DNA from: Polychytrium aggregatum
Taxonomy: Eukaryota > Chytridiomycota > Chytridiomycetes > Polychytriales
DNA length: 64,000 nucleotides
Direction: 5' to 3'
Assembly: GCF_025602895.1 (NCBI RefSeq)
Contig: NW_026516323.1
Span: 62,001-126,000, forward strand
A program made the translations under genes and the position numbers. This document shows positions 54,289 through 61,423 of this stretch, piece after piece. The notes under the pieces are model-generated. The model ran no database searches and was not told the DNA's origin. It worked only from the letters and a program-made list of their open reading frames with translations. Every line of letters begins with the position of its first letter. The stretch's first letter is position 1.

Positions 54289-56672
54289 ATGTCGACCCCT
54301 GCCGTCGTCCCCATCAACTCGAGCAGCTCCTTCAATGGCTGGGAGATCTTCTACGGCGTCAACCAGAGCTACTCTCTCCCGCAGTGCAGCCGGTTCATCT
54401 CCTCGGTCGCCCAGCGAGCAAGCGTCCTCGGCGACTTTGTCTTCCGCACCAACTTTTGCAGCCACTTTTTCAGCTACGATCCGACCCAGTTCGAATACGA
54501 CTCGATCGATCCCACCACCCAGGCCCGCACCACTTATACCTGTCTTTCGTCCACATGCGACGCCTCCACCTGCAAGCTCTACAACAGCGCCACGGCCCCA
54601 GCCCTTGATGCCGATGTTTGTGGGTCGTCCTGGTACGGCGTCACCCCGAGCGACTACACATCCAAGGAGTAAGTTGTGGCCGCCGAGATCGCTTGGCCCC
54701 AAGCGACATCCCCGCTCCATTTGCTTTTTTGGTTATTTGCACATACCCTATCTGCATGGACCTGCCCATTCGTCCACAGATGCATGAATGCGCATCCGGA
54801 CTCGCTTGCATACGGACTCGCTTGCATACGGACTCGCTTGCATCTGCCACTCGCAGCGGTTTTTCGTATTAACCCTCTCGCTTGCTTGCCTTGGGCTGCA
54901 ACAGTAGCCTCAGCCCGTCTTTCAAAACCACCCTGTTTGCCTACAGCACTTACTACGTCGATCCCAACTGCAACACCCCGGCTGCCTGGGCGATCCGTGT
55001 GCCCGTCTACGGTAGCTGCACCCAAATCGACTCCAACCTCTTTGTCTACACCGTCAAAACCAGCGACGCAAACAGCAATGCGGTCCTGACCAACTATGGC
55101 TGCCTCGATTCGGGCTGCTCCTCGTGCTTTGCTGGCCCGACGTCCGCTCAGCTCGGCATCAATAGCGCATGCAGCCACCCTGCGCCCAACAGTACCAGCC
55201 AGTCCTTCGTCGGCTGGTCCGTTGGTCCTTCCGTTCTGGCTGCCATCCCAACGGCCTTTGCTAACGGCACCAAGCCTGGCGGCGGCTCGCCCGTCGGGCC
55301 CGCTCCTGCCCCGGTCTCTTCCCCAAGCAACGCGGGTCTCATTGCCGGCATTGTTGTTGGATGCCTCGGTGAGTCCTGCAGCATGTGTGCGAATGGCAGG
55401 GTGCATCCCACACCTCCCGGCTTCGGCTGTCTCTTCAGCTGATTGAGTGCCCTTGGCAGAATTGCTGACATGCTCGCATGCTCTGGATCGCTGACCTGCT
55501 CGTGTGCTTCCCACCACAGTCGTGATCTCTGCAATCATTGCCGCCGTCGTGATCACTAAGCGGCGAAAAGCTCTGCAGAAGAAACCCCCTGCCATCCTCG
55601 AGACTCTCGAGCTTGCTAATCAAGATGGTGCCCAGCCTCCCTCGGCATCGTTGCCCTCTGGCGCTTCTGACCGCGACGTGGATCTAACCGCCTCGATCCT
55701 TAATGCATACGGCCAACCCCGGACGTCCCAAGCCGTCAGCAGCGGTGCCGAGAGCGACCGCCCGATCTCGTATACATCCGTGGCCGATCCACCCGGCTTT
55801 TTGCAGTACCGACCGCAGTCTCTGGTCCAGTCCTCAACGGAATACTCGCGCAACAGCTACATGGCCTCTTCGAACTCGGACTACATCTACCCGCCCTTCA
55901 ATTCGGCCGCCAACCCCGGATATCCACCCTTCAGGGTCATCGAATCGCACGACCCTCAGAAAGGCTCGCCGGAGCTGACTCTGAATGTCGGCGACGTGGT
56001 CACTGTGTTCTACCTCGTCAACGAGACCTGGGGACAGGTACAGTCTCGCCCGCCCTAGCCCCAAGGCTGTGACTGATGCGGCGGTGTCACTCCCATCTGG
56101 GCGACTGAATCCGCAGCATTAGCGTGGCCGGAACCGCAAGCAGGCCCCCTATGTGTGCGAAGAGGATGTGGAGGCTTCACAGCTTAGCGCGTGTGCGCTG
56201 ACGGTGTTTCAGAGACGAGTCGAGGAGATGCTGCGAGAGCTCTTGCACTCGTCCCGCTCGCCTCCAGATATGCACAGAATGCTTTCTTATCTCGCTTGCT
56301 CGGGCCATCGACTCATTGCTGCAATCTTTGCTTTTGTTTCAGGCCCGCAACGACACCACAGAGAGGCATGGTCTTGTGCCAATGAGAAAACTGGCTCCGC
56401 ACGACGCCTCGGATCCATCCGCACAGCATCCCACGCTGGAGCGGTGCCCGTCTTACAAGAGCAGTCTTGCTCAGGCCACCACCAGCCGGGCGCCTCCTGC
56501 AGAAGCAAATCCCGAGGGCGCCAAAGCTTCCGTTGCCACCTACCACCCGCCGGAATCCGCACCAGAAGCCCAGAGCCCGTCCACAAAAGCGGCGTCCACC
56601 CAGCCAGCATCGCCGAGCCGGCCAACATCGTCGAGCAAACCTGCGTCAACCAGTCAGACTGAGTCCGAGTAA
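54289..56672 (+). CDS. Single-pass membrane protein with cytosolic SH3 domain
   Basis: Four exons (54289-54668, 54905-55368, 55520-56037, 56343-56672) give 563 residues. Residues 1-240 are a Cys-rich ectodomain with about a dozen cysteines and several NxS/T sites. A Ser/Pro/Gly linker leads to one membrane helix (about 271-297, split by the second intron), followed by TKRRKALQKK. The cytosolic part contains an SH3 domain (about 419-471): FRVIESHDPQ, ELTLNVGDVV, WGQARN and GLVPMRKL, with ELTLNVGD replacing the usual ELSFxxGD. The third intron interrupts it just after WGQ. The end is a Pro/Ser-rich tail. SH3 domains bind proline-rich partners, so this looks like a surface receptor or sensor linked to cytoskeletal or MAPK signalling. 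The start MSTPAVVPIN, in a good context, gives no signal peptide. Confidence 0.8.
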
Positions 56673-57232
56673 AGACTCGATTTCCCACTCGCTGCCTCCT
56701 CGCGACCCTAACCGCACCCATCTCGAATCTGTCGTTGAAGGTGTGAGATTGAGCAGGAGCCTCACCGGGCTGCGACTCTCTCTCTCTCTGTGTGTGTGTC
56801 CGTCGTATACTATGCATATAGTCCCTCAAAACGTGCAGAGATATCCAGACGTCATTGTCGAGCAAGAGAGGGGCATGTTCGGCTTGGTTGAAGCATCTAT
56901 TCGTCTGGTGGTGATAGTGGTGGGACTAATAGAAGCGCCGGACGAATCTCAGCGGGACTGGTGGCATAGCCTTTGCACTGTGGAGTAGAGTTGATGATGT
57001 TTGCATGACTGCCCCATGGAGCCAGATACAGCCTCGCTCCGGGCACATCATTCGCCCCAGCCAGCATATCATTCGGAATCACGACAGTCGCACGGCATCC
57101 GTTTTTGGTGGCTCTGGTCGCACCCACCACCCAGCCCTGATTGGCCAGAGTCCATTCTTGTCTGTGGTTTGGGCGTCGCCCGTGTCTCCCCCCTCAGCCT
57201 TCCATCTGCTCCTCGACCTGCCCGCCGGACGT
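56673..57232. other. Region between the SH3 protein and the pseudokinase
   Basis: It contains a (CT)n/(GT)n run at 56776-56800. An in-frame ATG at 57005 could extend the next gene by 76 residues, but that stretch has no conserved look. No other gene is supported. Confidence 0.55.
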
Positions 57233-60058
57233 ATGGTTGTCGACGTTGCTGTTGCCTTGACAAGCATTGCTGTCCTTGTTCAGTGCCACGGCGGCGATTC
57301 GCTGGGCCCTGTCCTGAATGCCGCCCTGCTCGCCTTCGATGCCGCCAAGCAAGTGCAAGAGAACCAAACATCGTGGGCATGCCTCTCGAACCATTCGCTC
57401 GAGGTCCTTCAGACCCTCGCCGAGGCTCAAATCGATGCACCACCAACGCTTGCCCCGCACCTCGCACGTCTGCAGAATCTCTACGCACGTATTGGTGACT
57501 ACGTCACCGAGAACCACAAACATCCCAAGGTCGAGCGGGTTATCAAGGCCAGCCAATCCCGCGAGGCCGTTCAACTGTTTTATCGCGAGCTCGATTCGCA
57601 CTGGGAAAGTATTGCGCATACACTCTCCCTCCCCAGTGCCCTGAAGCTCGACGAGTCCCATTTGCTCGTGGCCATGCGTGCGGATGAGACTCAGGAACAA
57701 GCCTTCATCGACGAGGCGGTGCAGCTTCTCGAGCAAAACAGCACCGCCGTCTTCAGCAAGTTTGATATTGCGATCGACAGTCAAGCCTGGAGAATCCGCC
57801 AGGCAACTAGTGCCCTGCTTGGACTGGCTGGTGAGGACGGGGCGCCGCAGCCTATCGTCGAGCGAGTCGTTGCCCCACTCCTGCACTTGCTCCAGTCCCA
57901 GTCCCAGGTTGCTCGCTCGATGAAGAATGAGCGGTGGCGCATCGATGCCAACACAATCACCGATCGCTCCGCAAAGCCGATTGCCCGTGGCGGCTTTGGC
58001 GAGGTCTATACGGCACGCTACTTTGGATCCGAGGTTGCTGTCAAAGAGCTCTTGTGCAGCTACACCGAGAGCGAGATTGCCGAGTTCCGTCGAGAGATTG
58101 ATATCTGGCACAAGCTCAGGCACGCCAACGTCCTTACTTTGGTGGGCGCCTGCGATGCGGCCGAAAGGCCCTTCATGGTCTCCCCGTTCATGCCGAACGG
58201 TACCCTCCGAACACACGTCTCGGACCCCGAGTCCGCCTGCCCCCTCAACGAAAAGCTGTACTTGGCCCACCAAGTTGCTTCGGGCATGGCCTATCTGCAC
58301 GGAAGCAACATCATCCACGGCAACCTGACAACCAGAAACATACTCCTCGATGAGAGTTTTGTCGCAGTCATCTCGGACTTTGGACTCTCGCGCACCAAGC
58401 ACACGTCGTCGTCGTCTGTGCAGGTCCGTCTCACCGACACCATGTCCGGAGATCTTGGAATCCTGGCTCCGGAAATGCTCGACGGCGACGAGCCCTCGGG
58501 CACGACAAAGAAGACAGATGTTTATGCCTTTGGCATTCTGCTTTACGAGCTTCTGAATGATAGCAAGCCAACCTGGATCGCAAACGACGGGACCCCACTG
58601 CGTCCTCGCATCGTTGAGCGGCAGATCTCCCGAGGTAGTCGTCCCAAGCGTTTCGACGGGATCCCCGATGATGTCTGGGCCATCATAGAGTGCTGCTGGC
58701 ACCAGGATCCGGCCCAGCGTCCGGCATTCAGCATCGTCCTCAAAGCGCTTGAGCCCTATCGGGACTATGTGCCACCGCCGCCTCCATCCCCGACCCCGTC
58801 CTCGTCTTCATCTCCATCCCTGTATCAGACCTCAGACGGAGATAAACTCACTATCGCCCGCGCCGTGATCGAATACCTGCATTATCGGACTGGGAACTCA
58901 CCCGACTCCCCGGACAACGGCATCCTCTCGAATCCCGGTGTGCTGAAGCTGTTAGCGGCTGAACTTGGCTCTGCCCCTGAAATCCCAAGCTTGGTCATGC
59001 GTCGGGCTCTCTCCGACGACTTGGATGCATATGTCCAAATTGGGAAAATCTTGTCCTTTGAGAAGCCCGCCGCCGATCCCGTTTGGGCGCGGACTGCACA
59101 GCTTTTTGAAAGAGCTGCCGACGAACCGCATCTCGGCGCCAGCTTCCATCTTGCCTGGCTGTACTTTTGCGGAATAGGCGTCGGCCAGCGCGACGATCAG
59201 GCGATCAGTTGCTGGCAGCTTGTCTCTTCGAAATCAACCGATCCGATCTTGAAACCTCTCGCCACATTGATGCTCGGGTGGTGCCATTACTGCGGACGCG
59301 GCACCCCCACAGACAAGCCGAAAGCAATCGAGCTCATCCGCCAGAGCCGAACGGTCACATTTGGCCTTGGGGAAGACTGCCTCAGCTCGCGTACCCCAAT
59401 TTCGTCGGACTCGCCTGCCGCCCGTCAATTCTTTAGGTTGTGCGAGATCGGCTCGGAGAGGGACTGGATATGTGCCCACCTCGTGGCCGTTTGCTACATG
59501 GGAGGCTTCGGCGTAACAAAGGACCAAATCCGATCGGTTGCGATTTTTGAGAAGCTCGCTTCGCAGGACCGGGATGTAAGCCAGTACTGGCTTGGCCGAT
59601 GCTACGGAAGCGGCCGAGGCGTGGCCATGGATCACTCCGCTGAATACCAGTGGTACAGTCGATCAGCCAACCAGGGCAACTCGTACGCACAAAATATGGT
59701 CGGCCGGTGCTACGAAAATGGTTGGGGTGTTGTCAGGGACTATACCAAAGCTCTGGAATGGTATCGCAAGGCAGTCGAGCTTGGAAGCGCCACGGCCCAA
59801 AACAACCTGGGGCTGTGCTACGAAAACGGCTATGGTGTCGCTGCTGATTTCGCCATCGCAGCCAGTTGGTATCGCAAGGCTGCAGAGCAGGGCAACATGT
59901 ATGCGCAGTACAATCTTGCTGTTTTCTACGAGGAAGGTCGCGGGCTGCCCAAGGACATCGAGAAGGCCGCCAGCTGGTATCGCCGATCTGCTGATCAGGG
60001 CTATTCCGAAGCGCGCCATGGCCTCGAGGACCTCAGGAACCGGGGTCTTGTGATCTGA
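57233..60058 (+). CDS. MLKL-like helical bundle, TKL pseudokinase and Sel1 repeats
   Basis: One exon encodes 941 residues from the ATG at 57233; an in-frame ATG at 57005 would add 76 poorly ordered residues. Residues 1-220 are helical and resemble the N-terminal four-helix domain of MLKL/HeLo-type proteins (hydrophobic start VVDVAVALTSIAVLV, then PVLNAALLAFDAAKQ). Residues 245-510 are a tyrosine-kinase-like fold: glycine loop ARGGFGEVY, VAVK Lys271, Glu288 in helix C, DFG at 382-384 and APE at 412-414. The catalytic HRD is HGN (362-364), so the base Asp is Asn and phosphotransfer should be lost or weak. A Pro/Ser linker follows, then six or seven Sel1 repeats (about 615-930). The repeats probably bind partners. 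A role as a regulated membrane-active or signalling protein is inferred. Confidence 0.85.
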   Translation: MVVDVAVALTSIAVLVQCHGGDSLGPVLNAALLAFDAAKQVQENQTSWACLSNHSLEVLQTLAEAQIDAPPTLAPHLARLQNLYARIGDYVTENHKHPKVERVIKASQSREAVQLFYRELDSHWESIAHTLSLPSALKLDESHLLVAMRADETQEQAFIDEAVQLLEQNSTAVFSKFDIAIDSQAWRIRQATSALLGLAGEDGAPQPIVERVVAPLLHLLQSQSQVARSMKNERWRIDANTITDRSAKPIARGGFGEVYTARYFGSEVAVKELLCSYTESEIAEFRREIDIWHKLRHANVLTLVGACDAAERPFMVSPFMPNGTLRTHVSDPESACPLNEKLYLAHQVASGMAYLHGSNIIHGNLTTRNILLDESFVAVISDFGLSRTKHTSSSSVQVRLTDTMSGDLGILAPEMLDGDEPSGTTKKTDVYAFGILLYELLNDSKPTWIANDGTPLRPRIVERQISRGSRPKRFDGIPDDVWAIIECCWHQDPAQRPAFSIVLKALEPYRDYVPPPPPSPTPSSSSSPSLYQTSDGDKLTIARAVIEYLHYRTGNSPDSPDNGILSNPGVLKLLAAELGSAPEIPSLVMRRALSDDLDAYVQIGKILSFEKPAADPVWARTAQLFERAADEPHLGASFHLAWLYFCGIGVGQRDDQAISCWQLVSSKSTDPILKPLATLMLGWCHYCGRGTPTDKPKAIELIRQSRTVTFGLGEDCLSSRTPISSDSPAARQFFRLCEIGSERDWICAHLVAVCYMGGFGVTKDQIRSVAIFEKLASQDRDVSQYWLGRCYGSGRGVAMDHSAEYQWYSRSANQGNSYAQNMVGRCYENGWGVVRDYTKALEWYRKAVELGSATAQNNLGLCYENGYGVAADFAIAASWYRKAAEQGNMYAQYNLAVFYEEGRGLPKDIEKAASWYRRSADQGYSEARHGLEDLRNRGLVI

Positions 60059-60320: not shown

Positions 60321-61423
60321 GTTATCGGAGCAGGCTCGGCCTGGCACAAGAGCTGCTTCAGCTGCAAGGTGGGTGTGAGGGATGCGATTCCGGCGATAGA
60401 TACCGTCGACCGATGATGGCGTCGTGAACCGAATTCAATCCGATGGGCTCTGTGATGTGCTGCTCCCGTTACTGCTTCGTCGTGCTCACCGCCTCTGGGC
60501 CCAAGAATGCCGCAAACGACTCGAGTCCACCACTTTGACTGAAAGTGCCGGAGAGATTTACTGCAAGTCCTGCTATGGCAAGCTCTTTGGTCCCAAAGGT
60601 GAGGCCATCGGACCTGCGACGAGACATCCAGTCCTGATCTCTGATGGGTCTTGAGAGACATGTGACGGTATTCAATTGCCTGGTGCATGGGGTCAGATCA
60701 AGCCTGGGAGAGTTTTTGGCTCGGCCGATGGGGTTCGCCGGACATGGAGACTCAATGAAGAAGCCCGCGCAAGAGTCGGCAAGCATTTCATTGATATTTG
60801 ACGGTCGTTGTCTCGTGTGATGGGGCCAGGATACGGCGGCTGCGGTGGTGGTACTTTTCTCCACTGTGAAGGCAAGCCCCAGTCCAACCAGGGCCAGGGC
60901 ACTGCCGAACCAGGGACGGGCACCGTTGCTTCTGCCGAACCAGCACCACCACCAGCAGCACCACCGACAGCAGCACCCATGGCAGCTTCTGTTTCAGCTG
61001 CACCAAGCACCAAGCCCAAATTTGGCTCGACCGACATATGCCCTCGCTGTGGAAAGGCCGTATACTTTGCCGAGCAGGCGCTTGGCCCTGGAAACACAAA
61101 GTACCACAAGTCTTGCTTCCTGCGCTCGTGAGTGCTCTCGTTCGCATCTGCAAGTTATGGCCGCGAAGTGCTGTCGCTCACGAGCAGAAATCACTGACAG
61201 AGCTCGCGCTGACTGCCAATGGATCTTGCTGTCGGTATTGGTTTCGCGGTGTCATGTCCTTGCCACAACGGGATGGGGGACGGCCAACAGCGAATGCAAC
61301 CGGACGTTGGACTCGTCGTCGATGGCCGAACGAGACAGCGCCATCTTCTGTCGCTCATGTTATGGGAAGAAGTTTGGACCCAAAGGATTCGGGTACAGCG
61401 GCGGGCTGAGCCACACCACTTGA
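60321..61423 (+). pseudogene. Damaged CRP-type LIM-domain gene
   Basis: Exon-like pieces: 60321-60368 (VIGAGSAWHKSCFSCK), 60506-60598 (ECRKRLES to [14 protein letters not shown]), 60830-61127 and 61291-61423. They encode most of two LIM domains of the cysteine-rich protein family, which bind actin-associated partners in animals and fungi. Three faults are seen. The first zinc half of LIM1 (CxxCxKxVY) is missing from the 260 bases upstream. The join between the first two pieces cannot keep both frame and Cys spacing with any GT-AG choice; the nearest gives CKVEC instead of CKEC. In LIM2 a zinc-binding Cys is Arg (CGC at 61123-61125, in HKSCFLRSEC). LIM2 is otherwise complete, ending FCRSCYGKKFGPKGFGYSGG. 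Either a decaying gene or one with assembly errors and a distant first exon. Confidence 0.6.

Follow-up and report, generated by a model that had tools for sequence, protein, structure and literature searches.

A Sel1-Tailed TKL Pseudokinase with a Probable MLKL-Type N-Terminus in the Chytrid Polychytrium aggregatum

Introduction

MLKL-family homologues (TCDB 1.A.105) carrying Sel1 repeats have been described in Glomeromycotina and are called exclusive to that group in the excerpt of the source (PMC8778642). In basidiomycetes, MLKL_NTD (BaMLKL) and HeLo-like domains form the N-termini of NLR proteins, and the excerpt of the same report gives BaMLKL an additional helix at its N-terminus and describes a short one lying between h3 and h4 (PMC9815663). 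Fungal HELL domains joined to a kinase or pseudokinase, an arrangement reminiscent of MLKL, appear in another excerpt (PMC12881547), and an N-terminal helix with transmembrane propensity is presented as a key element of HeLo/HELL action (PMC10197012, excerpt). A Sel1 protein of bacterial origin has been reported from a chytrid, the excerpt of that report not naming MLKL (PMC5005798). Here we analyse a gene of Polychytrium aggregatum situated in a 64,000-nucleotide stretch of contig NW_026516323.1 (positions 62,001 to 126,000, forward strand; hereafter the window). It is an intact single open reading frame (ORF) of 941 amino acids (aa) at 57233-60058 (+), whose product combines an N-terminal domain, a linker, a TKL-type kinase fold and a Sel1 tail. 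Its residues mark the window protein as catalytically dead within a kinase family most of whose members look live.

A Pseudokinase among Live-Looking Relatives

Pfam assigns the middle of the protein to the TKL-type kinases (PF07714, expectation value (E) 2.6e-54) and its C-terminal part to Sel1 repeats (PF08238, six stretches, E 1.5e-49); the Sel1 region also matches solved Sel1 proteins, and no Pfam model covers the first 232 residues. Together with the alignment of paralogues, these matches bear out the domain order given by an earlier reading made from the DNA letters alone (the sequence-only reading). That reading had also recognised a pseudokinase with HGN in place of HRD and with the ATP-binding Lys, the helix-C Glu and DFG retained, and the residues, read directly, agree. 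The catalytic loop runs H362-G363-N364-L365-T366-x-x-N369 (HRDLKxxN changed to HGNLTTRN). The HxDLK signature of active TKL kinases, made up of the catalytic Asp and the catalytic-loop Lys, is thus absent (D364N, K366T), and the P+1 Thr is replaced by Asp (D407); the replacements of the catalytic-loop Lys and of the P+1 Thr had escaped the sequence-only reading. The Gly-rich loop, K271, E288, D382-F383-G384 and A412-P413-E414 are kept. From these residues the kinase domain is predicted to be dead but nucleotide-binding. Animal MLKL has a Lys at the catalytic position where the window protein has Asn. In an alignment of 16 sequences over the N-terminus and the kinase, the 15 others share one residue at each of 71 columns, from which the window protein departs at seven; two of these changes concern the catalytic Asp and Lys, and the other five exchange one hydrophobic residue for another. 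L023, a relative that keeps the catalytic Asp, differs at more columns (10 of 74).

The genome searched comprises 64.7 Mb in 418 contigs. Its 53 matches to the window N-terminus at E <= 0.001 (haplotype copies included) indicate a similarity beyond chance. Merging at 95% kinase identity left 29 distinct kinases bearing this N-terminal module (N-module), the window protein and 28 others. Of the 29, 23 retain the catalytic Asp, so this is not a pseudokinase family, a point that weighs against an MLKL-like interpretation of the window protein. The sequence-only reading had itself named close homologues with an intact HRD as the observation that would speak for a normal Sel1-TKL kinase; close paralogues with the catalytic Asp exist, the window protein being one of six without it, and the objection holds by half. 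Among the Asp-keepers, L023 has YGD and, in place of DFG, DIG; the DFG Asp is missing from L071, and L028 and L051 are affected by a stop or a frame change.

The six N-module kinases reading HxN are the window protein, L064, L065, L067, L068 and L072. Their history was followed on a quick tree of the 29 N-module kinases and 24 kinases without the module, with the catalytic columns left out. Its rows are 56 distinct sequences less L053 (partial) and the very divergent L061 and L062; L028 and L065 (in-frame stops), L051 (kinase half in another frame) and L052 (partial) were kept. The N-module label needs a single change on this tree (support 91) and HxN needs six, with an HxN row standing beside an Asp row in the three starred pairs L071/L072, L051/L065 and L023/L068. 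On this tree the dead form would be of repeated origin, reached through Asp to Asn in each of the six cases. The in-frame stop of L065 means that some HxN genes may be non-functional.

HxN occurs in none of the 24 kinases without the N-module, which had been selected for resembling the window kinase. An enrichment of HxN in N-module kinases (6/29 against 0/24) is not claimed, given this biased choice and a kinase copy on contig C101 that reads HGNLKSLN, has no N-module listed and has as its likely allele L089, with HGD. Counts of the HGN pattern (14+15) do not exceed those of a reversed-pattern control (21+25), and the pattern alone is no proof. In viral contigs 26 stretches fit the patterns, none of them encoding a relative. 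The kinases at C101:70431-71243 (HGN) and C376:2426-3256 (HGD) are likely allelic, with open frames of 423 and 1163 aa, respectively. Several frames of the genome hold more than one kinase domain. Three TKL kinase matches lie in one 1201-aa open frame at C123:30764-33295. L023 (C114) joins an N-module to two kinase domains in one frame, the first degenerate (YGDV/DIG) and the second with HGDLK and DFG; L068 (C13:224519-227617) has the same composition, its first kinase domain reading HGN and GFG.

Relationship of the N-Terminus to the MLKL Bundle

In single comparisons of the 29 modules with 24,736 Pfam models, MLKL_N was matched at E <= 5 by seven modules (best E 0.001) and every other model by one module at most. 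Five MLKL_N matches with printed coordinates, from 18 paralogues scanned, share nearly one offset (16-23 residues). No NCBIfam model rose above two of the 29 modules at E <= 1, and that search gave nothing useful. Among N-module relatives no printed MLKL_N score passes the Pfam cut-off (best 17.8 against 27 bits), and for this reason the protein is not filed as MLKL. Two further loci, L061 (C24) and L062 (C96), combine an MLKL_N-like N-terminus with a degenerate kinase fold that lacks DFG and has HGDI and HGNI loops. L061 scores 27.6 bits against MLKL_N in the genome search, over the cut-off, and 23.8 when its ORF is scanned; the best PDB match of its N-terminus is MLKL (E 0.18).

The pooled profile A3, from L061, L062 and ten of the 19 aligned window-type members, found MLKL first in the PDB (E 3.1e-5) and in seven of the top eight rows, the MLKL rows being mostly near-copies of one protein and not independent. 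Its score of 25.9 bits stands against maxima of 8.7 (200 column permutations) and 17.2 (18 register shifts). In A6 (L061/L062 with all 29 modules) MLKL stood third and fourth at E 0.019, after two MmpL5 rows, and in A7 (L061/L062 with 14 modules having no printed MLKL_N match) second and third at E 0.022, after a designed protein. The pooled profiles align MLKL along the whole four-helix bundle. Family profiles scored low in raw terms against the MLKL fragment, yet shuffles seldom scored as high: 0 of 1000 for A1, 4 of 1000 for A1 cut to 150 residues and 4 of 2000 for A5. Alignment A1 holds 23 distinct sequences less L010, L034, L039 and L054, A2 is further reduced by L028, L051 and L052, and A5 and A6 are without L010, L065 and L069.

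Other results weigh against this relationship. The window N-terminus alone has no match to MLKL_N (PF22215), longer constructs of 16 members gave none at E <= 0.1, and in a scan of 19 members over 236 residues at E <= 1 MLKL_N was matched by four members and two other models by two each. The family profiles A1 and A5, which leave out L061/L062, retrieved MmpL5 and other partial matches from the PDB and no MLKL, nor was MLKL listed for the L061/L062 profile alone. The latter fails to recognise the window N-terminus (185 of 300 shuffles scored as high), and a search with the L061 N-terminus finds itself and L062 and no window-type member. Five of the ten window-type members of A3 were chosen as earlier MLKL_N matchers, and its E of 3e-5 rests on that choice; without it MLKL falls to E ~0.02, below MmpL5 (E 0.00033, A6) or the designed protein (E 0.0024, A7). 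The permutation and register-shift controls cover the chosen set A3 only. Profile-profile scores from hhalign lie within those of shuffles (20.2 against a maximum of 20.7, and 16.5 against 19.8). Two single-sequence AlphaFold2 models, of residues 1-236 and 1-150, are nearly all helix at predicted local distance difference test (pLDDT) values of 40.7 and 46.4, and Foldseek and VIA-align searches with the pLDDT-46.4 model gave only generic helical bundles in the 50 rows listed for each, MLKL not among them. Structure prediction had been proposed as a check for a four-helix bundle plus brace; with models this poor, the fold searches are regarded as uninformative.

Two competing matches were set aside. 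MmpL5 (E 0.00099 with the family alone, 0.00033 in A6) is judged a coiled-coil chance match, as it spans about half of the module, comes from a transporter of bacteria and recedes to E 0.1 with A7; Phasin_2 (best E 0.0001) was matched by a single member. Nowhere in the genome does a sequence match the HeLo model PF14479 at E <= 1, a threshold that distant relatives may escape, and MLKL_N is for that reason the nearer name. The sequence-only reading had likened the N-terminus to both MLKL and HeLo-type proteins by pattern. The helical character of the region rests on the two low-confidence models and on the probable homology to MLKL. Taking both sides together, we regard homology between the N-terminus and the MLKL bundle as probable, not proven, its odds having been lowered by the results with A6 and A7.

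The N-module also occurs outside the kinase context. In the 295-aa frame of L074 (2-886, C97) it is followed, after profile positions 4-148 (E 9e-22), by an Ifi-6-16 (ISG12-type) domain (E 1.5e-12), and in L073 (profile positions 5-169) by Sel1 repeats with no kinase match. These fusions mark residues 1-150 as a unit apart from the rest of the linker, to residue 236, which goes with the kinase. About 11 kb from the L074 gene, at C97:43176-45299, matches to Ifi-6-16, to a TKL kinase and to Sel1 share a strand in open frames of equal reported length (783 aa). Ifi-6-16 proteins work at membranes and take part in the death of animal cells. Their fusions suggest that TKL-Sel1 scaffolds carry a broader range of membrane effectors.

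The Locus and Its Haplotypes

The features of the gene are collected in Table 1. Its frame is open without a stop from an earlier ATG at 57005 through 60058; the start at 57233, chosen by the sequence-only reading, is preferred because 16 of 19 aligned N-termini, the window's among them, begin with Met at or near that column. No other stretch of 19 residues in the protein is as hydrophobic as residues 1-19, and several siblings are much less hydrophobic over their first 19 residues. In the second haplotype (L002, contig C201) the protein is identical over residues 1-512, and the rest of the coding sequence shows two changes, a silent one and a replacement. Neither assembled haplotype interrupts the 941-aa frame and both have HGN, which is thus not a single-contig error. 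C26 and C201 look like haplotype contigs, since L001/L002 and L016/L017 are collinear on them. By pattern, the upstream neighbour (window 54882-56058) looks secreted or membrane-bound and includes an SH3-like stretch, and the downstream one (60560-61420) contains LIM-zinc-finger-like pieces. The fungal host had been recognised from the letters; the chitin synthase family gives 26 exon-level matches in the genome and none in 14 control genomes, and the IFT46 (flagellum) family is matched as well, which fits a fungus with flagella.

Table 1. Positions of the features of the candidate MLKL-like gene in the window
Feature	Position	Strand	Basis or remark
Whole ORF, 941 aa (MLKL_N-like, TKL pseudokinase, Sel1)	57233..60058	+	Start agrees with paralogues
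Hydrophobic N-terminal helix, residues 2-19	57236..57289	+	Kyte-Doolittle 1.86; helix in low-confidence models
Mobile N-terminal module, residues 1-150	57233..57682	+	Fused to other partners elsewhere in genome
Stretch aligning to MLKL four-helix bundle, residues ~24-133	57302..57631	+	Pooled profiles
Conserved linker from bundle to kinase, residues 134-236, in the place of the MLKL brace (by position alone)	57632..57940	+	Paralogue alignment
TKL-type kinase domain, residues 248-505	57974..58747	+	PF07714
ATP-binding Lys271, kept	58043..58045	+	Read directly
Helix-C Glu288, kept	58094..58096	+	Read directly
Catalytic loop HGNLTTRN, residues 362-369; D364N and K366T against HGDLKxxN of most paralogues	58316..58339	+	
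DFG, residues 382-384, kept	58376..58384	+	
P+1 loop MSGDLGILAPE, residues 404-414; in GGTxxYMAPE, Thr to Asp and Met to Leu	58442..58474	+	
Pro/Ser-rich linker	58781..58831	+	Sequence
Sel1 repeat region, residues ~640-935, outer limits by eye	59150..60037	+	PF08238, six stretches

Possible Mode of Action and Alternative Explanations

The window protein may well be an MLKL-like switch protein, a reading that we favour tentatively. What the sequences show is the architecture, the lost catalytic residues, the expanded family and the shuffled module; from these we infer how activation, membrane action and cell death might be linked. The N-terminal bundle, probably of MLKL_N type, and the hydrophobic helix before it would be the effector; the TKL domain, with its nucleotide-binding residues kept and its catalytic ones lost, would be the lock that holds or releases the bundle, and the Sel1 repeats a dock for a partner. 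A Sel1-bound partner, or phosphorylation by a live-looking sibling kinase, would shift the pseudokinase, whereupon the freed bundle could form oligomers and the hydrophobic helix engage the membrane. The outcome might be cell damage or the membrane recruitment of a signalling complex; analogy with animal MLKL suggests a role in regulated cell death. A part in incompatibility and Sel1 repeats in place of a separate adaptor, both put forward by the sequence-only reading, would be further conjectures. A bolder version, in which one family supplies both halves of a relay, live MLKL_N-TKL-Sel1 kinases (in the role of RIPK3) activating their dead siblings (in the role of MLKL), seems unlikely to us; the repeated origin of the dead form and proteins of the L023/L068 type, with a degenerate and a second kinase domain in one chain, would accord with it.

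The strongest rival is that the family is an ordinary TKL-Sel1 signalling family, in which the bundle dimerises or localises the kinase and the window copy is a dead regulator or a decoy for binding partners of its live siblings, with no membrane killing. We consider this a serious possibility. TKL kinases and Sel1 proteins are both very much expanded in this genome (at least 143 matches to PF07714, counting haplotype copies, and 2772 first-look candidates, respectively), most N-module kinases keep the catalytic Asp, and the direct matches of the module to MLKL are weak; in Rhizophagus, kinase and Sel1-like families are called signalling-related in the excerpt of the source (PMC8647823). What this explanation leaves unaccounted for is that MLKL_N, alone among Pfam models, recurs in matches to the module and that pooled profiles find MLKL along the whole bundle.

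It is improbable that the window protein is still an active kinase using an unusual mechanism. The retained Lys, Glu and DFG would bind Mg-ATP, all nucleotide-binding residues being present, and an active plant pseudokinase, ILK1, is described in an excerpt (PMC9403797), but the catalytic Asp, the catalytic-loop Lys and the P+1 Thr are all changed. Least probable of all, we think, is a decaying duplicate that lost its catalytic residues as the gene ceased to matter, as in-frame stops in the siblings L028/L030 and L065 and the separate change behind each HxN row might suggest, for the frame is open in both haplotypes, the Gly-rich loop, Lys, Glu, DFG, APE and Sel1 repeats are intact, and the invariant columns changed are fewer than in the Asp-keeping L023.

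If the bundle is of MLKL type, the MLKL layout is present in a fungus with flagellum genes, beside many relatives that keep the catalytic Asp. The evolution of an MLKL-like pseudokinase from an active kinase would then be observable within one genome, and it would become possible to test whether kinase-controlled, necroptosis-like death predates animals.

Comparison with Known Systems

The MLKL-like switch protein proposed here shares with animal MLKL (PF22215; PDB 6zvo, 2msv, 4btf) the order of N-terminal domain (probably a helical bundle), linker and pseudokinase, and the catalytic Asp is lost in both. Unlike animal MLKL, it ends in Sel1 repeats, has an additional hydrophobic helix ahead of the bundle and has many siblings with the catalytic Asp; the kept DFG is counted as a further difference. 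With the MLKL-Sel1 proteins of Glomeromycotina, to which it can be likened by description only, it has in common the combination of a part of MLKL type, probable in the present case, with Sel1 in an early-diverging fungus; the excerpt on those proteins is silent about catalytic residues. Unlike the hosts of those proteins, the present genome has flagellum genes, which we take to place the fungus outside Glomeromycotina. A second MLKL-like type in the same genome is represented, judging by their sequences, by L061 and L062, which differ from the window protein in having no Sel1 match and weak beta-propeller matches at the C-terminus.

Similarity to BaMLKL lies in the extra helix (H2-19) and the short helix (H98-106) that the low-confidence model of the window protein suggests, whereas the protein itself is of the kinase-Sel1 type and not an NLR effector like BaMLKL and the HeLo-like domains. 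From the fungal HELL kinases it is separated by its Sel1 repeats, not named for them in the excerpt, and by the missing HeLo match in the genome. In the open-licence literature we found no report of this architecture in chytrids, MLKL-like proteins having been reported from other groups. MLKL homologues with Sel1 are in print for Glomeromycotina, and the present locus has a comparable layout, with live-looking siblings, in a fungus with flagellum genes.

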